Part shown: in pieces, positions 18,862 through 64,000 of the stretch | How positions within the stretch are numbered: position 1 is the first letter of the stretch | Layout of the letters: each line of letters opens with the position of its first letter | Source of the DNA: Apostichopus japonicus | Lineage: Eukaryota > Echinodermata > Holothuroidea > Aspidochirotida > Stichopodidae | Length of the DNA: 64,000 nucleotides | Direction of reading: 5' to 3' | NCBI RefSeq assembly: GCF_037975245.1 | Contig: NC_092562.1 | Location: forward strand, 28,285,554-28,349,553 | Notes under the pieces: model-generated | Database searches by the model: none | Told to the model about the DNA's origin: nothing | What the model saw: only the letters and a program-made list of their open reading frames with translations | Made by a program: the position numbers and the translations under genes

Positions 18862-20960
18862 TTTCAACATTTTTTTTTAATTTATTTTTTTAAACTTTAT
18901 TCGTAACCAGGGATCCTGTCAATGGTAAACCAGTGTTCTCCCCAGGATCCCTGCACATATAACACATACAAAATGAAACAAACAGAACACATTAATAAAT
19001 AAAGAATATAAATATAAAAAATAAATAAATATAAAAATCAAAATCAAATATCGATTTCAAAGATTCCAGAAAGCCAGGCCATTTCTAATTGCACATTTTA
19101 ATTTATTTTTAAAGGTATCAGTGTTATTGCACATACGAATATGCCGAGGCAGTGCATTCCATTCATTAACCCCATGGCAAGTTTGACGACGTCTCCCCCA
19201 AATAGTGTTGGAATGTGGAAGGCAGAAACCACCAGAGGTAGAAGCTCTTGTGGCAGATTCACTCGAGGAGACATGGACATACCTGTCACAGAGATAGTCA
19301 GGAGCAGCTGCTATGTGGATTATATGCATAAAAACCTGACGGTGATAATTCCATCTTTGCTTTATAGGGATCCAGGATAGAGCTGAAAGAACATCAGCTG
19401 TAGGTGCAGTCCCAGGAAGATCTCGAATAATCCGACCATCTCTTCCTTGCAGAGATACCAGACATTTTTTATACTTGGCACAGGTGTTATACCAGGTACA
19501 ACTAGCATAATCAAAGTGGGGGCTTATCAAACTATTGTACACCATAATCCTGTATTTGTGTGGAAGCTACTTCTTAACCCTCCCCAGCATCCCAAGACGG
19601 CAGGATATTTTCTTTCAAATCATAGATATATGGTCTTTGAAAGTTAAGGTACTGTCCAAAAGCACCCCAAGGTACCTAAAAACATGAACCTGTTCTATAT
19701 CATGTGAGTCATGATGGAGAATGAGAGGGTCAGCTCTCTTCATCATGGTTGGTGTGCCAAAAAGCATACTTTTGGTCTTTTTTACATTCAAGGTCAATGT
19801 GGTTTTGACTAGCCACTTGCCAATCTGATTAAGATCAGTACAGAACCTGCTGTATTTCACATATTTTCTCAGAGCTATACATAACAGCTGTGTCATCTGC
19901 ATATAACATTGCTTGGCTTTCACTTGTGGCAGATGGAAGATCATTTATGTAGATAGAGAATAGTAATGGCCCAATGATAGATCCCTGTGGAACGCCAAAT
20001 ACAATTCCCATCATATCTGAATACTGGTTCTCAATCTGAACAATCTGGTATCTGCCCGCAAGATAAGAGCCGAACCAATCCAATGCAGAGTCAACAACTC
20101 CATATGACCCAAGTGTCATGATCAACTGTATCAATAGCTTTTTTAAAGTCAAGGAACAAGATGCCAGTGTAGTTCTTTCTTCCACAGGCACCGTCCATGT
20201 TTGACAGAATATCATCAACCACATAGCTGAGAGCCGTAGTAGTGGAGTAACCAGGTCTGAAGCCTGATTGCCATTTGTTAAGGATCTTGTTACTAGTAAG
20301 ATACTGATACAGTTGATCAAGAACCACTCTTTCCAAGATTTTTGACACAGCTGGCAGAACTGAAATAGGTCTATAATTGTCGTCCTGACTGCGTGCCCCA
20401 TCTTTGAAAACTGGTGAGACCTTGGCAGTCTTCCAGTCAAAAGGGAAAACCCCATGAGAGAGTGAGAAGTTGATGATATAAGTAAGAGAAGGAGCAATGT
20501 GGGAGGCAGATAGCCTCAACAAACGAGCACTTATGTTGTCAAGGCCAGTGGCTTTCCCGGCAGACAGGCCCTTTAGTTGCTTCTCAATTGATTTAATGCT
20601 AACTGTCTGGAATCGGAAATTACATAAAGTATCATTTGTGGAAGGAGTGTGGGGTCTAGAATCGAATTTACTAGCTAACTCACTTCCAATGTTAGCGAAA
20701 AATTGTTGAAGACATTAGCAATTTCACACTTGTCATTAACAGCAATACCATTATCAATTATGTTAGCAATGTTACGGTGTTTGCTACTATGCATTGCTTC
20801 TTTAAGGGTAGACCATAATTTAGAGGAGTCATTTTTAGTGTCCTCAATTTTGGTTTTGAAGTACTCACATTTTAGTTGTGAAGCCAGTTTATTGAGTTTG
20901 TTTCTACATTTTTTTTATCTGGCCCAAGTGTCCAGTGAACCATTTCCATTTCCATTTCCT
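18862..20960 (-). pseudogene. Decayed non-LTR retrotransposon (LINE) with reverse transcriptase
   Basis: Minus-strand fragments in at least three frames together give a reverse transcriptase. Landmarks: GKATGLDNISARLL near 20550, NYRPISVLP near 20370, FRPGYSTTTAL near 20250, FLDFKKAIDTVDHD near 20130, GVPQGSIIGPLLFSIYIND near 19970, the catalytic YADD near 19900 and FRYLGVLLDS near 19660. The C-terminal part ends in NGLAFWNL at about 19060. The 3' UTR contains AATAAAG near 18900 and an A-rich tail (T-rich on plus) at about 18867-18890, abutting the target duplication of the neighbouring hAT element. The order of motifs fits the CR1/Jockey-type lineage (inference). Frameshifts and absence of the endonuclease mark it as a 5'-truncated dead copy. 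Confidence 0.9.
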
Positions 20961-21519: not shown

Positions 21520-40869
<19,350 letters not shown>

Positions 40870-45517: not shown

Positions 45518-45646
45518 TCAACTACTCGTTTGATACTCTAACAGATAAAGAGGTAGTGCTTGTGAAGGGTGAAAGATGACATATTCTTGTTGCCTCGTCC
45601 GAACCGAGGATGAGGTCTCTTCATTGACCGGTAGTCTGCCTTGAGT
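45518..45646 (-). CDS. GNAT-ART gene exon 15: catalytic Glu motif and C-terminus
   Basis: Acceptor ...tctgtttag; stop TGA 45518-45520. Encodes TQGRLPVNEETSSSVRTRQQ followed by EYVIFHPSQALPLYLLEY and QTSS. E-Y-(I/V)-(V/I)-(Y/F) is the PARP catalytic glutamate strand and QALPxYLxxY the typical terminus. Another open frame over the same exon is rejected because exon 14 ends in phase 0. Confidence 0.88.
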   Translation of the reverse strand, partial: TQGRLPVNEETSSSVRTRQQEYVIFHPSQALPLYLLEYQTSS

Positions 45647-48600
45647 CTAAACAGAAAATAAAAGCATCAGTTAGGCCAGGTTTAAGGTAGAATCTATCAC
45701 AATGATCAATATCAAACACTGAGTTGTATTGTCATTAGGTAGGGGGGGGGGGGGAGGGGATGGGTCCATAGTTTGTGATACAATACTGGGTATGATTTAT
45801 ATGCCATGCAAAAGCAAAGATGTATAGCATTTTTTGGAAACAGGAGCCCTAGAAATCTAAAAAAAAGTTCAGACCATTAAAACACAAAATTAACCCAATA
45901 AATTAATTTGCTGCAACATCATCATACAATTTAGTCTAATGTTAGGTCTCTTTCACACCCACTGTACAAGATTGAATTTGTCATTTATTGTAACTCTAAG
46001 TAGAACTTGGATTAATGGGACAAATGCAGACCAGAGACTGCCAAGATATGAAAAACAAGATCATCTAGTTTCACATACTATAGTATAGGTTTGTTATTTT
46101 CATAGTGGACTGTCAAAAATAAAATTCATTGTGTTTCATCATGATGTACTACAGCAGTACAACAGCATTGTAGCATTCTTGTGCTGTGAAAATTACATTT
46201 ATAAAAAACATAAAAATCTGCTCAGTCCATGAGCAGTCGATGGATATCTGCTTAGGATATTTCAGGATAAGGAAAACGGGGTTGGGATAATCCTGGTTTC
46301 ACTGTTCTACTGATAAATGACTGAATTGTACCACCCTCTAGATTTTAAGCCTACTGGAGGGTAAAGTAATCTGTGTTTTTAACAAACTCATGGGAAATGG
46401 ACTAGATATGTGAATCATAAAAAGCAACTCAAAATCTTAGCTAACAATTCTGAATGGTATCATCATGGTAATTTAGCCAGACAGGATAGGTAATAGCCAG
46501 TGTTTGTCTTACAATCATTGTAATTAGACTAGAAATGTATATATATCAAACACTGAAAATACCCTCTGTATACTACCTCTCCCATACATTTTAAATCTCT
46601 ACTCACAATGACTGAATCATATCCATGATATAGATTTAGTTGTAATATATTAATTGCTATCATACTAGTAATGTAGATCCAACCCACCCTCCTTATGCTA
46701 CCTCTTATGGCAAGCCACATGTGCAATACTTCGATAAACTGAGTTTATCGCGAAAAACACGGTTATCCATTTGATAAACTAAGTTTATAACAGAGTTTAA
46801 CAGCGATTAACTCGGTTTATCAAATTATTGCACATATGGCTTGCCATAACCTCTCCCATACAGTTTAAATCTCTACTCACAATGACTGAATCGTATCCTC
46901 TCGATGCCGCTGCTCTCATCCTATCAGCTTGTCTCATCGTCTCTGGGATTCCAATCGCAACCTCCGCCAGAATTATCTTTCCAAGCTGTTTGGACGGTAA
47001 AAGATGAGAGCAATCTGCCGTTTTGCTGGTTTTCGGTATTACATTAATCAATAATTTGACGTGGCCATAAATTGTTCATGAAAATATCATCAGATGTCGG
47101 GATATACAAATAACGCTTGCTACAAGTTTTTCTGGCTATGCATTATGCAAATGCACCAAAATTTATTTGTTGAGTTAAAATAGCATTCGTTAATGCCATC
47201 GCATGTACATGGAAACACACTCGCATGAACGTTCATTTGATCTTGTAAACGGAAGGAGAATGAAACACGACAACTTACAGCTGAGAAATGAGCAGCAGTA
47301 CTGGGATGTTGACTGAAGTAAAGACCCATTCCATAGTCACCGCAAGAAAAATCTGTTTTGGATCAAAGATTGATAAAACATATTCTTATATAATTCAACA
47401 CAGTTCCATGAACCAGTTTGGGAGAACAATTTGCATCCTTTGGTTTCACGCTGCAAAATTTAAAACGTTTTTTTACAGTAGGATGTAGGATAATATTATT
47501 ATATTAATCTATATGAAATAAATATGAGCTAATACATGGATTCTCACTTGGCAGGCTGAGTACAAAAATAACTCAAGTATGAGTAATCATTTCTCTGGTA
47601 TGATCTTAATTCTTACTTGGCAGTATTATAAATAACACACACTTACCCAAGGATGAGAATCCATTCTCAAGTATGTTATGAATTCTCTCCGGATGAAGGA
47701 GAGAACCGCAGAAATACATTTTGGTCTTCATGGACGGATCGTTCAGTTTGTCACACCATGAAGAATAAAGGGACAAGGTATGTGGAGTTGGCTGGGCCTG
47801 CAGAAATTATAAAAATAAAAAATAAAAAAAAATAAAAAAAACCAACAGATTCATAAGCTTTGACTTGAATTTTCATATAAGAAATAGATTTACAGGAAAG
47901 ACTGAAGGAAGAAACAGTCCATTTGTCCTTCTTTGCAATATTATAATAAAAAACAAAACAAAAATCATCCATTAATTAACACCACAAACAAGTCTTCTGT
48001 TCTTTTCTTTCAACATAAAATTTTCATCAAGTGTCAACCCAGGCAATAAATGATCCACATTTTACAGGAAAGAAAGAACAAGAACTATATATTTGGTCCA
48101 TGCAAGAATCCTAGGAATTATTAGTTGCCAGTGCTTGTTATGAAGGACAAATACAGATTGTATGTACTAGATACCCAGACAAATTAAAGGACAGAAGGAT
48201 ATACACAGTCTCAATATCGTCTTTTCCACTCTTTGAAACCAGCCCTGGGCCTTCTAAACTTTTCTAAACATAAAATTCCAACTAAGATTGATTTGAGTAA
48301 TTGAATATCCTCCTAGATAGAAAGATAAGTACAGGTATATTAAAATGTTTACGCTTCATTTATTGCCAATCTGTGATATTTGCACAGTATGGATATGATT
48401 AGTTTAATATGTATTCTAGAAAAGACACTCTTGCTGAGCTTCAAAACATAATTAAAAATTCAAAACATAATTCAGAGCCGCCCCACCTTCTTCGTTCTTG
48501 TGACAGAGAAGTTATCTCCGAGCAAAGAATCCTCTCTCATCGCAAAAGCAAACTCTTCTGCCACTGCCCAATCGATGGTTTCTTCGTCTCCTTCAATGTC

Positions 48601-51600
48601 ACTCTCTGAAAAATGGAAAAATAACCCAGAAAGACCTAAAAATAATAAAAAACAACTTTCAATGTATAATCATGATATGGTCATTTTAATTCATTTAACT
48701 AAAAGATAAAAAAGGGACAAATATTTTTTTTTTTTTTAATTAATAAAAAACAACTCTCAATGTAAAATCATGAAGTGGTCATTTTAATTCATTTATTTGT
48801 TTTACTAAAAGATAGCAAAAGGGACAAATAATATTTTTTTCAAAACCAACCCAAACCTCAACAAGCTAATGGTTGTATACAAAACGTTTGTAAATTTGTG
48901 TAGCGAAAGTAAAGATAGTCATTTACACAGACAAGAAATAGTAACTTGAAATAACAATATCACTCTTCCAATCCTTTATGCTCAGATTGATTTCCATTTT
49001 CAAACATACGTAGGTATTTTCGCCCCTTATTTGTAAAGATGATTGACTGACCTGTCCCCATATCTCTGACCCTCCTCTCTAGGTCCTGAATGATAGAGCT
49101 ACTGTCAAGGTTCGCCCCTTCTTCACCTCCTTCACAATCGTCCCATTCTATTAAAGGAAAAAAAGAAGGAAAAAAAATATAAACAATGAAAAAATTAAAG
49201 ATGAAGGGTTATACCAATAAGTCATGATACCTCAAAAGTTTTGGACGGATAATGAAACCTCCAAAAAGATGAGTGGTGAGATAAACAAAGAGATCAAATT
49301 CAGGATGAAATGTCAGATGTAAAAATGTTTGAAATTTGACACTCTACCTGAAGTAAGACACACACGTAAGAAGAAATATATTCATAGTTGACCTTAACCA
49401 AAGGAAGCCTGAGCCTTCTTTCATAAAAGTACGCTCTGATTACTTTCATGACATTGACAATAAAGTTTAATAAATGTGTATGACAATGGAACAGACAGAC
49501 ATAACCACAGATGGGTAGAGAGACATTTTTGAGGGATCGGCGAATTTAACAAATGGATACCAATTTAAGAAAAAAGACTGGATTTTAATAAATCAAATGC
49601 TAACTTCATTTAAACCAGAGTTCCACAGACTGGGAGTAACAAAGATAGAGAAAGAACATATACAGAAATATTAATTTGTTACCTTTTTGTTACAACCAAT
49701 GTGCACAATCATATTTATGTATTTGATGATAAATATAATCCATAAGTTGATCTAACAAAGCTATTTCCCCCTTTTGTATCATTCATTAAGCTTACAGGGT
49801 GGTGTCCAGAATTATTTTCATTGCTTTGTACATGTTTACTTTCACTGTACAAGAAACTGATAAAAAAGGCCAGTATTTGCACATTGGTAAAATAGCCAAG
49901 CACCATTAATTTTAACTTTTCAGTCAAGTCCATTTTCAAATATGTTGAAATTGCTACTGTGGTAGAAAACACAAGCTAAAATGTGCAGATTCCTATCACA
50001 GAATCTAAAATCCTTGTATAGTAAATCACCATGGTAACCAGTATCAGGTGTTTCTTCCAGGCCATCCAAGTCGATGCCAGCTTTGAGGGCAAAAACTCTT
50101 TGTAGTAAATTCTTCCTTTCTGCGAAGAGGGAAAGAATAAATAGTCTACATTAATAAAGGACGTGGATTAATTTCTTTCCAAAGAGGAAACAAACATGAT
50201 AAACCAACTGTCTTAATTTACTTTGTATTAAAGGATACACGATCCGCCATTTTGCTTAAACTTTATATCGATGAGTGGTTCCCATCAATGTCAGTTATGT
50301 TGAATATGTCACCTCCAACAAGCCTCTGATTGTTCCACTATCACAAGAACTGTCTTACCTGATCCACTTTTGTCAAAGAATAGCATAGAGTACTGAAAAA
50401 CCAGACAGCTTAGTGGATCAAAATATTAAAAAAAAAGTTCAGTATGATACTCCAAAACTAACCTATAAATAAGCCAAAATGAGCAAAACCTGTTTTACAC
50501 ACTGCTCTTCTACTCAGGGATGAGCCTGGGGTAAAAAAAAATATCACAGAACTTTGCAAAAATTGCGGTATAGGCTCCAGTTTGCATATGCTACAGTGTG
50601 TTAGGATAATAGTTTTTGTCCCGAGGTAGAACAGAAATCACGGATATTCCGCGAATTCGCGGAAAAGCTCATGCCTGTCTACTGGTGAAAGTAATAAATC
50701 GTTGCTTTTTTTTGGATGGAAACACACTTACCGAGATCCTGTTTTTCGGCATGAAGTACATCAACCTTGTTGGACAGAGAGGTAATTATATCTTGTTGGG
50801 AACTGACCTAAGGAAGGATAAAAACAATGGATCAGCATTATTTTTCAGCATTAAAAACAAAAGAGATATTGTTGGTAATTAGTAAAGGGAGATGAAGCAG
50901 GCAACTATTGTACCTCCTTCTCAAGTGAGAAAACGTGGAATTTTCTTGATTCCTCTCCACAGTTTTCCTGACATAGTTAACGTTTGATGAAAGGATCAGC
51001 TTATGATTAAACTATCCTGTTCCCCTCAAAACCAAATTGATAATAATTCTAATTGCTGCTCTGAATCCATCCTTAACCTTTAGAAGCTCAATCAGACTCT
51101 AATTATCATCTTTATATTTGGATGAGTATAATTAAAGTTGAGACCTACCAAGGCCCGCAGGGCGATGATTTCGTGACGGAATCTCATAAGGCAACTAAAC
51201 TGAGCTTGGTAGGCTTCTCTGCTCTTCTGCGTCCACTTCTGAAGTTCCAGTTCCATCGCTTTGAGGTCCAAAGATTCATCGGAGGAATGAAACATTGTTT
51301 GGCCTGAAAAGTACAAACCAGAAAGTAAGTCCAGTCAATGGTATCATTTTTTGGGGGTCGTTGTTCCCATTCACCCGTAAGGATTCATGAGATCATATTA
51401 ATCACAACATATCCTATTTTCCTTAAGTTTAAGTGGCTGGTTGTACCCCTTTACCAGTTGGAGTGTTAGCTCAATGGTTAACGACGGAGCCTTTCAATCA
51501 TAAGGTACCAAGATTAATGTATGTCGTCCAGTTACAGAGTTGTTGACAATTGACAATTCATAATCATGGACATTAAATATGAATCTAAGAGACTGACTTC

Positions 51601-54600
51601 GGTCAGCTTGCGGCTTTGATAAGCCAATGATGGCTTCTCCGCGAGTTCCTGCTTGCAGTAGGATCTAACATACATACATACCAGTTAACAACATTGTTTA
51701 TTATGTAGCTGCAAGATGCTGAATATCAAGTGGTTCTTTACCAGTAAATGGTGGAATGTAACACATTAATGTGCAATTGGTCCAGTTGTCGGCCAGCTCG
51801 GAATACTTGCTGTTCAGCACGATGTCGTCAGAGAAGCCGTACCCGGAGAAGAAATCAACAGCGGAGTGGTCTGCGTAGACGACCAGGTTATCAAAACGGC
51901 CAACCATGGATGGATCCTTTAATTTCTACAAGATAAAGAAAAAGAAAACAAAATAAAAACAAAAGAACAAGAATAGAAGAAGAAAATGAATACAAAGAAC
52001 AAAACAAATCAGAAACAGATAAAACGGAAGAAAGAATCAATTTATTTAATCTTGTAAAATATTTGGTTTTCTTTTCATCTCAGGATGTCGTAGCAGATCT
52101 ACTTTGCATTCCCATTTACTAATAAATCTTATTTAAAACAATAGGTAAAAAAAAAACTGTTGCTTCGTTTAAACCACTTGGGAAGAATATACCTTTTGAA
52201 AAACTAAAAGAAGAAATTTCATAACAGGCCTGAAGGCTACTTTAAAGGCTAACTTCATGTTGATTGTTTAAAACTGAGAATCAAAGATGATTAGACTAAA
52301 AAAAACATTTGAGTCAGCAACATAAAACATACTGGAGAGAGAATAAACGTGATTTGGTACCTGAATGAGGTATTTCCCGACACCTGATTTTCGGTATCTC
52401 CTTCTGACTGCTAGTAGATCAATCTGAATGGTATTTTCTCCAGGACACCTAGAGAGCAGGGAAAAACAGTAGGAGGATCATATGATAAACAGTGAGAACT
52501 CCCATCCCATTCCTCAGGGGAATAACAAAATTAATCTAAATGAGCTGTTCTGCAGGATATCTAGAAGCAACAATGAAATTAGGTTAACAATGTACAAATA
52601 ATATGAAGTCCATTGGCTATTCCCCCTCTCCCTACCCCAGAGCTTTGATACAAGTAGATTCACAGATCAATGTAAGTGAGATGCTTCTTTCCCACGCACA
52701 TACAGTATTAAAGTGATGCTACTAATCCACATACAGATATCTATATTCCACTTACTCACTCCTTTCCATTCTATAGGAAACCCATCATTAACATTTCATC
52801 TTCATCTCTCACACACTAACCTCTCATTTTCATCTCTCACACACAAACCTCTCATCTTCATCTCTCACACACTAACCTCTCATTTTCATCTCTCACACAC
52901 TAACCTCTCATCCTCATCTCTCACACACTAACCTCTCATTTTCATCTCTCACACACTAACCTCTCATCTTCATCTCTCACACACTAACCTCTCATCTTCA
53001 TCTCTCACACACTAACCTCTCATTTTCATCTCTCACACACTAACCTCTCATCTTCATCTCTCACACACTAACCTCTCATCTTCATCTCTCACACACTAAC
53101 CTCTCATTTTCATCTCTCACACACTAACCTCTCATCCTCATCTCTCACACACTAACCTCTCATTTTCATCTCTCACACACTAACCTCTCATCTTCATCTC
53201 TCACACACTAACCTCTCATTTTCATCTCTCACACACTAACCTCTCATTTTCATCTCTCACACACTAACCTCTCATCTTCATCTCTCACACACTAACCTCT
53301 CATTTTCATCTCTCACACACTAACCTCTCATCTTCATCTCTCACACACTAACCTCTCATTTTCATCTCTCACACACTAACCTCTCATTTTCATCTCTCAC
53401 ACACTAACCTCTCATCTTCATCTCTCACACACTAACCTCTCATTTTCATCTCTCACACACTAACCTCTCATCTTCATCTCTCACACACTAACCTCTCATC
53501 TTCATCTCTCACACACTAACCTCTCATCTTCATCTCTCACACACTAACCTCTCATCCTACATTCCTGTTATTCATGTTCAGCGGACAGATTTACATTTGC
53601 TTTTATTACAAAAACAACTAACAAATAGTACAAACTCTTGAGAATACAGCAAAACATACATTTCAATTAATACACTATATAGTCAGAAGCCTGAAACAAT
53701 CTAGCCAGAAGTGTCTGGTCTTGCAACCAACTAGAGGGTTTGTAAGAAGAAATTGTGACATGAACCAGTGTGCAACAAGTCTGTGATGGGATGGAAAATG
53801 TTTCCAACCATTTTGCCTTTGAGACCTAACAGTTTGTGAATGCAGTACTTACACATGTGACTTTTCCCAGGTAGCACAGCCAATCAGACGTGATTCTATA
53901 CCAATGTAAGATGATACATCTGATTCTGTTTCCAAAGCCTCCTTCCTCTTTTCTCTCCTCTCTCTCACCAGCTGGAGAAACAACTCGGCTCCTTGAGAGA
54001 AATCATGCTCATCCTCTTCATCACTGATCGAAGAGAACAAATAAGGGTCTTTACCATATAACCTCTTGCTTTCTATCAGCAGCACCCACCCGCCCCCACC
54101 CTCACCCACCTGCCTCCTACAGCAACCAAACCTCATGTTAGCCATCACTATTGAGGAACTTTAACCAATTGTGAAAATAAATGGTTGAATTTCGGCTTCT
54201 GAATCGTTTGATGCAATGTGGAGGATGACAATCTTCAAGTAAGTGAATTATTAATTAATTAATAAGATGAACTATTAATTACTTAATAAGATACATTATT
54301 TATAGAACTGCAGAAGACTTTTGATAGACTAATCTTTAGGGCCAAGTTAAAAGATAAACCAGATGAGACTAATTCTATTTTGCACACTTTTTTGGGGTTG
54401 TACAATGCTGGTTAAGATCCATCACTGAACATGAAGAAACTCTGTTAATTTCAGGCACACATCGATACTTGCTTTTGAAAGCAAGGTTCTCTCTAGCGAG
54501 AGGAGACCATATGTTGCGAAAATCAACCAGCCCACAATTAAGGCAGCTTTCTGAGCCGATTTTGATACCATGTATCTCTTGATATTGTTTAATACTAAAA

Positions 54601-57600
54601 AAAATCATATTAATAGATCTCACTAGCTTGACTAGCCAATTCTTATTTCAAATAGAGAGGAGCAATAGTTTAAATTTGTGAAATTTCAATGTAGTTCATT
54701 TATTTTTTACAAACTTGTACATGTTTGATATGCCACCAAGAAAAGTGTCCTGACAACAACATGTTGAGGGTTAAATCAAGCTCTTTAACTACATATCACT
54801 ATTCACTTATTCATTAATCTTTCTTTGGTGGACAAAATCTAGGAGATTTTAGTTTGATTTTAAAACTAAAACCTTATTAAGGGTACTTACCAGTACCTAC
54901 AGTAGGTTTGGGGGAAAAATGCTGTTTCAATGCCAACTGGTTAAAAAAAAAAAAAGGAAATGTTTTTTTACCTACTGGAGGAAGAATCACTCTCTGTGTC
55001 ACTGAAAACATCTGCAAATGTTCTCTTCTTGTCATCATTGTGTTTGTTAGGGCCCTCTTTAAGGATAGTATCATTGGCATCTTCCTCTTCAACTGAATCT
55101 TTCCTCTTGGCATCCAATGAATTCAGACCATCATCACAATTACAAGTATTTTCAAGGTCCTTGGTCTTTGGTCTGTTCTGTTCACACCTTCCGCACACAC
55201 CCTTGTCTTCTGTTGGACTTTCACAATCTGTTTTATCATTCACTGGGGTGGTCTGTTTGTTCTTTTGTGTTCCTATGGAAACATATGCTTTCAGACTATT
55301 GGCATTTCCGAGCACTTTAATGTTACAGTTTATATCCTGGGAATTAAAGTCCCCCGATGAGAATCTATTAACTGATGAGGTGCCTCCTGGAATGCCATTT
55401 AGTTGGTTGTACTCCATAGAATATAAGTCGTCGTAGGGGGATTTTAGGACTCCGTAATCCGAGGTCAATTCTGGGGATAGGCTGCCTCCAGTGAGAGTAT
55501 TATCATCACTGCTCTCAGGGACCTTGTAGTCATTGAGCACATCTATGATATCGAAGTTAAAACATCGTCATAATTACTGTACATTGTAAATTTAGTCAGG
55601 TGTCTGAGGAAAGACTTAAGAAAGCACACAAGGCATGACACTTAAAGTAAGACCAGACCAGACGTCCCTGATATCCCGGGAGCAGTCCTCAGATGTCATG
55701 TACCATCACCGGATTAAAAGTGTCCCCAGAATCCGTTTACTGTCTCAGGAATAACTTGGTATTTGTAAAAAGACCCTGAATATTTGAAATTAAATATGTT
55801 TGGCTGAACTATTTGTTGGGTCAGCTGGAACCTACAGCAAGTTGTGATTGTTCATGTTGACAAACTACAAACGAAAAATTTATTCATGGCTCAACGATTA
55901 AGGCAACCTCAATAGGCCGTAATTCACAAGGGAAGCATCATGGTGCACTTTGTGATGAATAATAAGATTCCAATTATCTTCAAGTTTCATTTACATGAGA
56001 TTTTCATATCGGACAAAATAATTGTCTCTTCTAAACTTTGGCATTTGACCAACATCCTACAGTACAATGAAGAAAGAACTCCCAAAATACAAAGAGACTG
56101 TCAAAATGCCAGCGGTATCCAGTCAAAACGTCCCTTTACCAAAACGTCCCCGCTTTTTTAAGACCAAAACGTCCCCGCTTTTTACCAAAACGTCCCCGCA
56201 GTCAAAACGTCCCTGTGAGTCAAAACATCCCCGCTTTTATAATCAGTTGGAATGCAAGTGTGGACTTTTTTCCTTCAAATCAAAGAGTAAGGATAAGTAT
56301 AGTTTAGGTCGAAAACACAGTTTTTAGGAGTGGGAAGTGCCGGTTATGAGGGCGGAAACATTTTGAGTACAATTTTTTGAGGTAAGATCATATAAATAGA
56401 AAAGGGAATGCAAGAGGGCTGTAGGGTAATAGGATTTTTTTAAACACGAGTTGGTTTCTGAATGAATATATACCATATTGAGGGAAGGGAATAAATATTT
56501 TTTGTTTTCCTTAATTCGTTAATTCACTGAAAAACATATAGCGTATACCTTTTTCATACCAATTATAATTAAACGGTATAGTCCTTCATGATTTATTTAG
56601 CGCCTGTAATCAAACTTGCATGCCGGTAACTTAGCCAAATTATTAATATTAATACATATTCACAACTGAGAATGAATGTGATAGACGGGGACGTTTTGAC
56701 TTACGGGGACGTTTTGACCAACAGGGACGTTTGACCAACCGGGACGTTTGATCAACGGGGACGTTTTGACCAAAAGCGGGGACGTTTTGGTACAGGGACC
56801 TTTTGGTAAAGGGACTTTTTGACTGGTGAGCATGCCAGCTACAGTACCCCACCCTTAAAACTTACATCGTTATAGCAACCAACTTTTTCTGATCATGCCA
56901 ATGGTCGTCATACTGTACATGTGATCCAAAAAATGGGGAAGGGGTATATGGGGAGGGGGTGCCCCTCGACTCAAAGAAGATGGAAATTTTAGACCCCCTA
57001 CATGCAAAATAGTGACACGCACATGTTATAAATTGCCTTAATCATGTATAATTTAGGATAACTTCAAAGAGTACATGCAAATCAGCCAGATCCAGATATA
57101 TGATGAGTACTGTATGTGTGGGTTGGCTAGATTGCAATGACAAATGCAGGTTTAACCTCCAAGTTGTGGGTCACTGAGGGGCTCTGCATTGTAGGCACTA
57201 ACCCTTTATTTCAACATGGGGGGCGGCGGGAGGGGGGAGGAATACAAAATTGACAACATAATGTCCATGGGATTCCTGGAAAGAAGGTGGTTACCTTATC
57301 ATAAATACGGTCAGGAGTAATCAAATCATTTAATGATTACAATTGTTAGAGATTCCAATTTGTGTCAGAAGGAAAAGAGAGAAAGAAACTTTTAATATGT
57401 TAGTAACCAATGAATTATGTACACATTGTTTTGGAATGCATGCTTAAAGTAACTCACCTTCAACATTTCTAACCAGAAGGACAGTTGTTGCCCACTTATC
57501 ACAAACAGTTGAGTACAATACTTCTGGAGTGATATCTGGTAGACAGTTATCATATAATGCTACTGTAGCATGAAGGAGATCTCTGTTGGAAACCTGAAGA

Positions 57601-58292
57601 AAAGGATGAAATAATACAGTAACGTAAGTAACATTTGGCTGTGTGGTGTGACTACCATTTACAGTCCACAAGAAAAGCTTACCAATCTTAAAATTCATGA
57701 AAAAGTAAAGTACTGGCAACACCTTAGACTCAAGTTAGAGGGTGACCACATGAACTGTGATTCTTTCCAATCAATGTCTGTTCGATATGTACAGTAAGAT
57801 GCACAACTTACAATTGAGTTTGCTGGTGGACTTAATATTTTTGATTAATTGAGGAGTAGCTATAGTATGAATATGATACTTGATACGAGGCTAAGAATAG
57901 AGTCAGGACATAGGCTACGCCAGGCCTACGTGTTTGGCCATGTGTAAAAATTGCCAATTCGAAGTCTTAAGTGGGCCATATGTCAACCCAAAATGTTATT
58001 ACTAAGTCATAATACTAGTACTGCTGATACTTTGGTTGCATACCCCTGGGATAGCGTTGATCGAATTGTACTTTGGGCTCAGCAGCAACCGTCTGAATTC
58101 AATGATGATAGGAGTGGAACAAAATCTGCGATCAGCCAAGTCACCGAACTCCCGAGACTTTCCTTTATGTTGTGTTTCACTTCCTACATTCTTTCTTATA
58201 AGACTTTTAGGTGGACTTTTTCGGTTTCGTTGGAAACAGACGGGAGAAAGTTTTGATGCAATTGGACTGTTTACATCCATGGAGGCAGCCAT
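45518..58292 (-). CDS. GNAT acetyltransferase - coiled coil - PARP-like ADP-ribosyltransferase fusion protein
   Basis: Minus-strand CDS: 58044-58292, 57458-57593, 54972-55542, 53853-54062, 52361-52448, 51742-51925, 51149-51303, 50732-50807, 50030-50119, 49052-49147, 48487-48605, 47647-47797, 47279-47352, 46881-46985, 45518-45646; 2433 nt, 810 aa, phases closing at every junction. Order: unassigned N-terminus; acidic/Ser-rich linker (about 129-320); GNAT domain (about 365-480) with the acetyl-CoA loop R408-KS-G411-V-G413; coiled coil (about 490-560); acidic linker; ART domain (about 660-808) with GLYFS (Y720) and EYVIFHPSQALPLYLLEY (E789). The His of the PARP H-Y-E triad is Cys (YFCGS, about C688). 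Predicted role: chromatin or signalling enzyme using acetyl-CoA and NAD+ (inference). I do not recognise a named orthologue. Exon 4 may extend to 54116 (828 aa); the exon 9 and 11 donors are weak. Confidence 0.84.
46552..46618. repeat. Partial duplication of the exon 14 donor region
   Basis: About 60-70 bp here match the 3' edge of exon 14 plus its donor and the start of the intron at about 46849-46900 (ctctactcacaatgactgaa in both). Only about 20 bp of exon is included, so it is a non-coding decoy splice donor. Confidence 0.8.
46706..46848. mobile_element. 143-bp MITE with 23-bp inverted termini
   Basis: Ends TATGGCAAGCCACATGTG and ...CACATATGGCTTGCCATA, one mismatch over 23 bp. Direct repeats ACCTCT are at 46700-46705 and 46849-46854. 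The neighbouring duplicate at about 46572 shows the uninterrupted site (ctacctctcccata). The interior is rich in gataaact/agtttatc palindromes. Superfamily not assigned. Confidence 0.87.
46881..46985 (-). CDS. GNAT-ART gene exon 14: ART core
   Basis: Acceptor ...ccaaacag, donor GTGAGT, exactly 35 codons. LGKIILAEVAIGIPETM corresponds to the GxLLLCEVALG strand of PARPs; AAASRGYDSVI to the following KGYDSV loop. Confidence 0.88.
47279..47352 (-). CDS. GNAT-ART gene exon 13: ART Tyr motif
   Basis: Acceptor ...caaaacag, donor GTAAGT. DYGMGLYFSQHPSTAAHF corresponds to the G-x-G-(I/L)-Y-F strand of PARPs, with the NAD-stacking Tyr at about 720. Confidence 0.88.
47647..47797 (-). CDS. GNAT-ART gene exon 12: first part of the ART domain
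   Basis: Acceptor ...tttctgcag, donor GTAAGT. LYSSWCDKLNDPSMKTK, MYFCGSLLHPERIHNILENG, FSSL. In PARPs this is the (L/F)-H-G-(T/S) strand followed by N-x-x-x-I-L-x-x-G-F. Everything matches except that the NAD-binding His is Cys (codon TGC). Confidence 0.87.
48487..48605 (-). CDS. GNAT-ART gene exon 11
   Basis: Acceptor ...tttttcag. ESDIEGDEETIDWAVAEEF through FAMREDSLLG to SVTRTKK. The donor would be AAG|GTGGGG, poor at +4 to +6, but it gives phase 0, exactly what exon 12 needs. Confidence 0.76.
49052..49147 (-). CDS. GNAT-ART gene exon 10
   Basis: Acceptor ...tttaatag, donor GTCAGT. Acidic EWDDCEGGEEGANLD, then SIIQDLERRVRDMGT. Phase 1-1. Confidence 0.8.
50030..50119 (-). CDS. GNAT-ART gene exon 9
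   Basis: Acceptor ...cttcgcag. Encodes RKNLLQRVFALKAGIDLDG and EETPDT. Two in-phase donors are possible: GTGATT (50030, preferred) or GTTACC (50039); they differ by three residues. Confidence 0.75.
50732..50807 (-). CDS. GNAT-ART gene exon 8: coiled coil, continued
   Basis: Donor GTAAGT, acceptor ...ccttag. IITSLSNKVDVLHAEKQDL keeps the heptad register of exon 7, suggesting dimerisation. Confidence 0.84.
51149..51303 (-). CDS. GNAT-ART gene exon 7: coiled coil
   Basis: Acceptor ...cttttcag, donor GTAGGT. LKAMELELQKWTQKSREAY through LMRFRHEIIALRAL has heptad-spaced hydrophobics and continues into exon 8. Confidence 0.84.
51465..51665 (+). mobile_element. Possible tRNA-derived SINE
   Basis: GTGTTAGCTCAATGGTTAA is a good pol III A box in tRNA-like context; the B box is degraded. 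The 3' part has ggtcagcttgcggct. In the intron between exons 6 and 7 of the GNAT-ART gene. Confidence 0.5.
51742..51925 (-). CDS. GNAT-ART gene exon 6: C-terminal part of the GNAT domain
   Basis: Encodes LVVYADHSAVDFFSGYGFS and continues to LADNWTNCTLMCY. Strand, then an A-V-D-F-F helix, then GYGF is the usual end of GNAT folds (motif B). Acceptor ...ttgtag, donor GTAAAG. Confidence 0.88.
52361..52448 (-). CDS. GNAT-ART gene exon 5: acetyl-CoA binding loop
   Basis: Encodes GENTIQIDLLAVRRRY followed by RKSGVGKYLI. This is the GNAT motif A strand and pyrophosphate loop (Q/R-x-x-G-x-G/A), the diagnostic signature of the family. Donor GTACCA is imperfect, but the frame joins exon 6 exactly. Confidence 0.88.
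52793..53557. repeat. 28-bp minisatellite, about 27 copies
   Basis: Head-to-tail units of tctctcacacactaacc plus tctcat(t/c)(t/c)tca. Units are almost identical except at two positions, giving tttt, tctt and tcct variants in an irregular order. It lies in the intron between exons 4 and 5 of the GNAT-ART gene. No spacers, so not CRISPR. Confidence 0.97.
53853..54062 (-). CDS. GNAT-ART gene exon 4: N-terminal part of the GNAT domain
   Basis: Donor GTAAGT is strong. Encodes LYGKDPYLFSSISDEEDEH, a helical LQLVRERREKRKEAL and the first GNAT strands SSYIGIESRLIGCATWE. Three in-phase acceptors are possible; the one giving 54062 makes the most natural join (SSSSR|LYGKD). Using the acceptor at 54116 adds an 18-residue Gly-rich insert. 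Confidence 0.78.
54972..55542 (-). CDS. GNAT-ART gene exon 3: acidic, serine-rich linker
   Basis: Acceptor ...tatcatag, donor GTAAAA. 571 nt in the single frame expected from exon 2. Low-complexity, acidic and Ser/Asn/Thr-rich (VPESSDDNTLTGG, KRKDSVEEEDAND, FSDTESDSSSS). It has several Cys (GVCGRCEQNRP, TCNCDDG) and a possible basic nuclear signal (KHNDDKKRTF). Likely disordered. Confidence 0.82.
56114..56831. mobile_element. Foldback-like element with CCAAAACGTCCCC repeats
   Basis: Left end ggtatCCAGTCAAAACGTCC and right end, read inverted, gctcaCCAGTCAAAAAGTCC. Each arm has several short units of (c)aaaacgtccccg, inverted between arms. The exact 8-bp direct repeats ATGCCAGC are at 56106-56113 and 56832-56839. 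The middle is unique and non-coding. In the intron between exons 2 and 3 of the GNAT-ART gene. Confidence 0.85.
57458..57593 (-). CDS. GNAT-ART gene exon 2
   Basis: Acceptor ...ttcttcag, donor GTGAGT. Encodes VSNRDLLHATVALYDNC through ITPEVLYSTVCDKWATT to LLVRNVE. Helical, with a regular hydrophobic pattern; no family assigned. Confidence 0.75.
58044..58292 (-). CDS. GNAT-ART gene exon 1
   Basis: ATG 58290-58292 (MAASMDVNSPIAS...), 83 codons, phase 0 end at donor GTATGC. Basic, Ser/Lys-rich start, then FCSTPIIIEFRRLLLSPKY. A plausible first coding exon because its 5' side faces HDAC3 across a short intergenic space; no domain recognised. Confidence 0.62.
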
Positions 58293-58873
58293 TTTTATTC
58301 AGATCAGGCTCGTACAAACACTTACGGTAGTTGTGAAATGTCATTCGATGAAAGTGTATTAAACCGATTTGAATGCAAAATGAAATCGTCAGTATTAAAT
58401 TCATTTAATCTTAGACTCCTGTGTTTATGAAAGATAACCATGAAAATAAAAACACAATTTTCTCCACTTCTCTGCTTATACTTACATTATTTTAGATTAA
58501 TTATCCCACGTTTTATGTAAATCCAAAGAAACTCTTGGAAATCAATTATGTAGTCATTGAATTAGTTATAAAATAGTCCCATTATATTAAAATACAAATA
58601 TTAATAAACGTTTGAAATTAACTCAATTACTATCTTCCTTATCGTTCTGTTGGTAAATCTATAAAAAAAAAAGTTCATCGAAGTTTCACATTTTAACCTA
58701 AGACACATAGCCTACACTGAAGGCTACAGTAGTACTGGGTCTTGTCATACTGTTATCTGTGTCGCCATTGATATTGGTAACACAACTATTCCCTTTGTCT
58801 AGTTTGGAATAGTGAGGTCAAACGGGGAAAAGTTTCCAGATAACTTGACACATTTCGACAGTCACTAGCGAAG
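58293..58873. promoter_or_regulatory. Bidirectional promoter region of GNAT-ART and HDAC3
   Basis: 581 bp between the two start codons of head-to-head genes. It must contain both 5' UTRs and core promoters unless upstream non-coding exons exist. No TATA box at a sensible distance and no obvious CpG island; the sequence is AT-rich in the middle. Shared control is inference from geometry. Confidence 0.6.

Positions 58874-64000
<5,127 letters not shown>

Follow-up and report, generated by a model that had tools for sequence, protein, structure and literature searches.

A single gene that would combine an acyltransferase domain and an ADP-ribosyltransferase (ART) domain was modelled in the sea cucumber Apostichopus japonicus, in a 64,000-nucleotide stretch of contig NC_092562.1 (RefSeq assembly GCF_037975245.1, positions 28,285,554 to 28,349,553), hereafter the window. 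The reading that we favour, and hold to be likely rather than settled, is that one animal gene would encode a GCN5/PCAF-like, acetyl-CoA-binding GNAT domain, an acidic insert, a heptad-rich and probably coiled-coil stretch, and a C-terminal ART domain of the PARP fold. To our knowledge well-studied animals encode PARPs and GCN5-like acetyltransferases as separate proteins. The GNAT-ART combination in this animal genome is real and unusual, and probably belongs to one gene.

The gene model was read from genomic DNA alone. It lies on the minus strand (58292..45518) and comprises 15 exons, placed by open frame, splice signal and phase, and 14 introns, all of them GT-AG. The coding sequence of 2394 bases keeps its frame intact from the ATG at 58292 to the stop at 45518 and encodes 797 amino acids, which bears out an earlier interpretation of the same DNA (the sequence-only reading) that had joined 15 exons in phase between these two points. 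Splice sites were picked with the phase already known; because all exons except 9 and 13, each of which has another open frame, can be read in a single frame (13 of 15), the in-phase joining is a genuine test. The exons are as follows:

58044..58292, minus strand, exon 1: residues 1-83; basic tail, A at -3 and G at +4 of the start codon, donor score just 1.2
57458..57593, minus strand, exon 2: residues 84-129; may form the start of the GNAT domain (alpha1 to beta2), suggestive only
54972..55542, minus strand, exon 3: residues 129-319; acidic, polar insert
53853..54023, minus strand, exon 4: residues 319-376; end of the insert, then GNAT beta3
52361..52448, minus strand, exon 5: residues 376-405; GNAT beta4 (IQIDLLAV) and acetyl-CoA loop RKSGVG (395-400), weak donor (0.3)
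51742..51925, minus strand, exon 6: residues 406-467; remaining GNAT core with GYGF, domain end CYIPPF
51149..51303, minus strand, exon 7: residues 467-518; start of the heptad-rich stretch
50732..50807, minus strand, exon 8: residues 519-544; heptad-rich stretch
50030..50119, minus strand, exon 9: residues 544-574
49052..49147, minus strand, exon 10: residues 574-606; acidic linker
48487..48605, minus strand, exon 11: residues 606-645; acidic linker
47647..47797, minus strand, exon 12: residues 646-696; first ART strand with FCGS (Cys675 at the place of the PARP His), ILENGF
47279..47352, minus strand, exon 13: residues 696-720; GLYF with triad Tyr707, weak acceptor (0.0)
46881..46985, minus strand, exon 14: residues 721-755; LAEVAIG and GYDSV
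45518..45646, minus strand, exon 15: residues 756-797 and the stop; QEYVIF with triad Glu776

All the motifs on which the sequence-only reading had relied were found along one reading chain: RKSGVG, GYGF (433), ILENGF, GLYF (705), LAEVAIG, GYDSV (750) and EYVIF (776). Its length of 810 residues differs from that of the present model and fits an alternative exon 4 acceptor upstream of 54023 which, as worked out by hand, would add 13 residues. The acceptor at 54023 has the better score; the 810-residue version would correspond to use of the upstream one, and we leave the choice between the two versions even. Acidic residues (D/E) make up 21% of residues 130-350 and 30% of residues 576-645. Heptad periodicity, judged by a crude score used without a control, is most marked in residues 499-548, with the 15 best windows of 35 amino acids starting at 499-514. 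Intron 4 carries a tandem array at 52789-53556 (28-base unit, 27.4 copies, 96% matches), and intron 2 carries two short arrays, at 56135-56234 and 56685-56821, built on ACGTCCCC and GGGGACGT and hence in opposite orientation.

A Pfam search of the whole 797-residue model, the check that the sequence-only reading had proposed, placed both GNAT and PARP profiles above their curated cut-offs. On the GNAT side, Acetyltransf_1 matched residues 356-436 (26.7 bits against a cut-off of 20.7, E 7.4e-6) and Acetyltransf_10 scored 26.4 against 23.6, while Acetyltransf_7 stayed below its cut-off (21.3 against 27). NCBIfam returned solely GNAT matches, all below their cut-offs, and none for the ART part or the first 189 residues. 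Of the solved structures, tGCN5 (E 3.8e-5) and PCAF (9.6e-5) come closest to the GNAT core, with a match that ends at exon 6, and the loop RKSGVG agrees with what we take to be the GNAT acetyl-CoA loop motif, Q/RxxGxG/A. The core has LAV, the GxG loop, YAD, F..GF and TLM.CYI.P in common with GCN5/PCAF (KAT2). It departs from them in Gln384, considered below, in an acidic insert of some 220 residues that separates exon 2 from the core, and in its domain company: animal KAT2 members carry a bromodomain and PCAF_N, and Pfam found no match to either in the model up to E 10, which sets it apart from that family.

Furthermore, we compared exon 2 with the start of the PCAF domain and found an ungapped match of 31 residues with a score of 28, which 59 of 5000 shuffles reached; the exon 2 site had the top score among all 46-residue windows of the model. 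The Pfam and phmmer GNAT alignments stop short of exon 2, and adding it to the GNAT core brought no clear gain (Acetyltransf_1 from 28.9 to 29.3 bits, Acetyltransf_10 from 30.0 to 29.2). The ungapped match thus suggests, without confirmation from the profile searches, a GNAT fold that would start in exon 2 and be split by the acidic insert that exons 3-4 encode.

For the C-terminal part, the PARP profile PF00644 matched residues 667-794 with 44.2 bits (cut-off 26.7, E 2e-11); most of exon 15 by itself, in a query short by one residue, scored 18.8 bits (E 0.0013), below that cut-off. The nearest solved structures are PARP3 (E 0.0017) and PARP4 (E 0.006), both modest matches. In a MAFFT alignment that set PARP fragments of the same genome and PARP4, seven rows in all, beside the model, the catalytic triad reads Cys675-Tyr707-Glu776; it is thus not the His-Tyr-Glu triad, and Tyr and Glu are retained. 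The Glu776 column holds Glu in four of the five rows that reach it, the Arg of the PARP1 row being due to a fragment read beyond the exon edge. Ala715 aligns with the PARP1 residue that we take to be Ser904, and Phe718 with what is presumably Tyr907. Compared with PARP3 and PARP4, which are of the His-Tyr-Glu type, Tyr707 and Glu776 line up with the triad, whereas the ART domain differs in having Cys675 for His and in that no helical regulatory domain was found in the model by Pfam. The register at Cys675 varies with the method: MAFFT aligns the Cys with the His and then opens an insertion of two residues, the phmmer match to tankyrase agrees over a weak 6.0-bit stretch, and the phmmer match to PARP4 uses a different register. 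The nearby His680 might conceivably stand in for the triad His.

We parsed the locus with a homology-blind parser, using splice weights from general knowledge and a codon table built on 1158 codons of this genome, in eight runs that covered seven distinct settings, six runs with a strict and two with a relaxed splice cut-off. A single gene was returned in all eight runs. The parse scored 125.3 with the relaxed splice cut-off and 118.1 with the other, under a gene penalty of 10 and an exon penalty of 6, compared with 28.7 for the plus strand and 2.9-24.6 for 20 hexamer-block shuffles (relaxed cut-off). Exons 1, 2 and 6-12 were recovered as modelled in every run, so that exons 6 and 7 were joined unforced; exons 13 and 14 were recovered in the two relaxed runs, and exons 3 and 4 exactly in one run each. 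The codon table chiefly measures composition, giving the coding sequence 83.6 bits, its reverse complement 162.1 and four intron blocks -38 to -104. Because it scores composition more than frame, the parse is support for a single gene and not proof of it.

Several observations weigh against one gene with two working domains. Exon 15 was picked in none of the eight runs, and exon 5, with the acetyl-CoA loop, was never placed as modelled; the strict runs (six of eight) keep exon 12 alone among the ART exons and terminate on an exon at 45183-45053 that replaces exons 13-15. Each run also inserts one to several exons foreign to the model, such as 50525-50463 in seven of eight. All six forced breaks lowered the score, a point in favour of one gene; the cost was 12.2 bits at 51500, 22.2 at 51000, 11.0 at 50400, 20.5 at 49600, 22.8 at 48800 and 15.6 at 48100, losses that contain the gene penalty wherever a second gene forms, so that the breaks at 50400 and 51500 cost only 1.0 and 2.2 bits beyond it; with the break at 48100 the parser still returned one gene and discarded the ART exons. 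The single gene is, moreover, deduced from genomic DNA. A rival reading, which we consider unlikely, divides the model into a GNAT gene of exons 1-6 that stops in intron 6 and a coiled-coil/ART gene that begins in exon 7 (ATG at 51295), whether as two genes or as alternative ends of a single locus. The forced break at 51500 yields exactly these two, and the GNAT match finishes where the first of them would end. The exon 6 donor is weak (2.1, top 6.8% of GT), and unspliced exon 6 runs on for 12 residues to a TAA that is overlapped by an AATAAA at 51702; neither AATAAA nor ATTAAA occurs in the 717 bases downstream of the ART stop. A transcript end that gives the GNAT part alone is accordingly possible. 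Yet exon 7 has a fair acceptor (score 4.6, within the top 2.3% of AG) and agrees in phase with exon 6, the parser joined the two exons whenever it was left free to do so, and one AATAAA per 438 AT-rich bases would not be rare.

The remaining points against the favoured reading concern the domains themselves, and catalysis in both is doubtful. Gln384 aligns with the Glu of AEVAFLAV in GCN5, on beta4, where we take the catalytic Glu of GCN5/PCAF to lie, and the model thus departs from KAT2 at this residue. Cys675 occupies a column that holds His in all five of the rows reaching it, and two weak stretches together make up the PARP3 match. One protein with little or no catalysis in either domain, serving as a scaffold to sense acetyl-CoA and NAD+ levels, is a possibility that we take seriously but do not prefer; it overlaps the favoured reading and differs from it in activity only. 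Cys675, Ala715 and Gln384 would all fit such a protein, whereas the retention of the acetyl-CoA loop and of the triad Tyr and Glu would not be expected of it, and Asp386, two residues past Gln384, could serve as a base. A Cys is also found in place of the triad His, with the Glu kept, in plant clade 1D PARPs, where its effect is called unclear by Citarelli et al. (PMC2964712). Of the dual modifier of the sequence-only reading, what is supported is a single in-phase model in which a stretch rich in heptads (by the crude score) separates a GNAT from a PARP-type domain, while the same three residues put its activity as a working enzyme in doubt. An error of the model, with either domain being a relic or of mobile-element origin, is very improbable: exon 15 has a negative codon score and is missed by the parser, and the exon 13 acceptor is weak, but all 2394 bases are open, both domains pass their Pfam cut-offs, and the searches described below found neither further copies in the genome nor confirmed relatives in viral contigs (ART, GNAT) or prokaryote genomes (ART).

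Under the favoured reading of one gene, the protein would be nuclear and self-associating. Its GNAT part would bind acetyl-CoA, for slow acetylation or for sensing only, and its ART part would bind NAD+ and perform mono-ADP-ribosylation at most, because the triad His is a Cys and the helical regulatory domain was not found. The more specific proposal of a single animal enzyme that uses acetyl-CoA and NAD+, acetylates and mono-ADP-ribosylates chromatin proteins with a Cys-Tyr-Glu ART site, and has a promoter in common with HDAC3 is a long shot.

We searched the assembly of 671,581,487 bases in 35 contigs exon by exon from exon 4 onwards, with a query of 444 residues, and found no second copy or paralogue: 13 candidates were scored, and all 12 matches to residues 354-797 lie inside this locus. 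Likewise, tblastn confirmed none of 26 GNAT and 3 ART pattern matches in viral contigs and none of 18 ART pattern matches in prokaryote genomes; both collections are without animal genomes and uninformative on conservation. As for the remark that no described protein with this order was recognised, the openly licensed PMC literature searched yielded no animal example, but a GNAT beside an ART is known from phages. In polyvalent proteins of phages and plasmids, one GNAT family typically neighbours an ART in the same polypeptide, as PMC5512222 describes. These proteins combine an H-Y-D ART with RimI-like GNATs (PMC5512222), unlike the sea-cucumber ART, which is nearest to eukaryotic PARPs. The model also has Glu776 rather than Asp, contains introns, sits on an animal chromosome, scores below the cut-off for ART-PolyVal (15.6 bits against 31.2) and has no PHROGs match in its ART part, and we do not place it among the polyvalent proteins. 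The pairing of GNAT with ART therefore has a phage precedent, in which the domain families and the setting differ.

Other partial parallels come from PMC2964712, where variant triads are counted inside the PARP superfamily. The plant clade 1D proteins differ from the sea-cucumber ART in having Val for Tyr in all except a moss protein, in belonging to the PARP1 clade and in the SAP domains that some of them have. Closer in layout are the PARP-E2 proteins of fungal clade 6A, which resemble the model in that a PARP domain and another protein-modifying enzyme fold share one chain; they are unlike it in that the partner is a ubiquitin-conjugating domain and their final Glu is missing (PMC2964712). 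In PMC11788884, Acetyltransf_1 is listed in a different domain shuffling and PARP goes unmentioned.

If true, a natural GNAT-PARP fusion would bring two protein modifications, each dependent on a metabolite, to the same target, and would reveal what processes have become linked in the course of evolution. A PARP with a Cys-Tyr-Glu triad, its Glu retained, would also be a natural protein for probing the role of the triad His.

The gene lies head to head with an HDAC3 gene on the plus strand, which starts at 58874 and has 5' exons to about 63588. This call was made from four exon pieces joined by eye (8.8e-91 for HDAC3 against 1.2e-74 for HDAC2; Hist_deacetyl, 105.6 bits). The CpG observed/expected ratio is 0.85 in 58000-59100 compared with 0.67 in the window, and the gap between the two genes is probably a shared promoter region. 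The role at chromatin that the sequence-only reading had raised retains two circumstantial points, the GCN5/PCAF-nearest core and the hint given by the head-to-head HDAC3. Elsewhere in the genome (the window being on contig C2) there are separate PARP3-like and tankyrase-like genes, named by fragment identity, PARP1-like and PARP2-like genes, named by eye, and a KAT2-like gene on C18:

58293..58873, no strand, gap: 581 bases between the start codons of the GNAT-ART gene (minus) and HDAC3 (plus)
Contigs C20, C5, C8, C3 and C18, other PARP- and KAT2-like genes: loci L028, L033, L027, L029 and L037

Further from the gene, an open frame at 37129-37536 on the plus strand has weak EGF-like matches below cut-off and may belong, as an exon, to a gene for an extracellular protein. 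At 19835-20714 on the minus strand, two overlapping frames each exceed the RVT_1 cut-off for part of it, indicating a reverse transcriptase split across frames, LINE-like by look.

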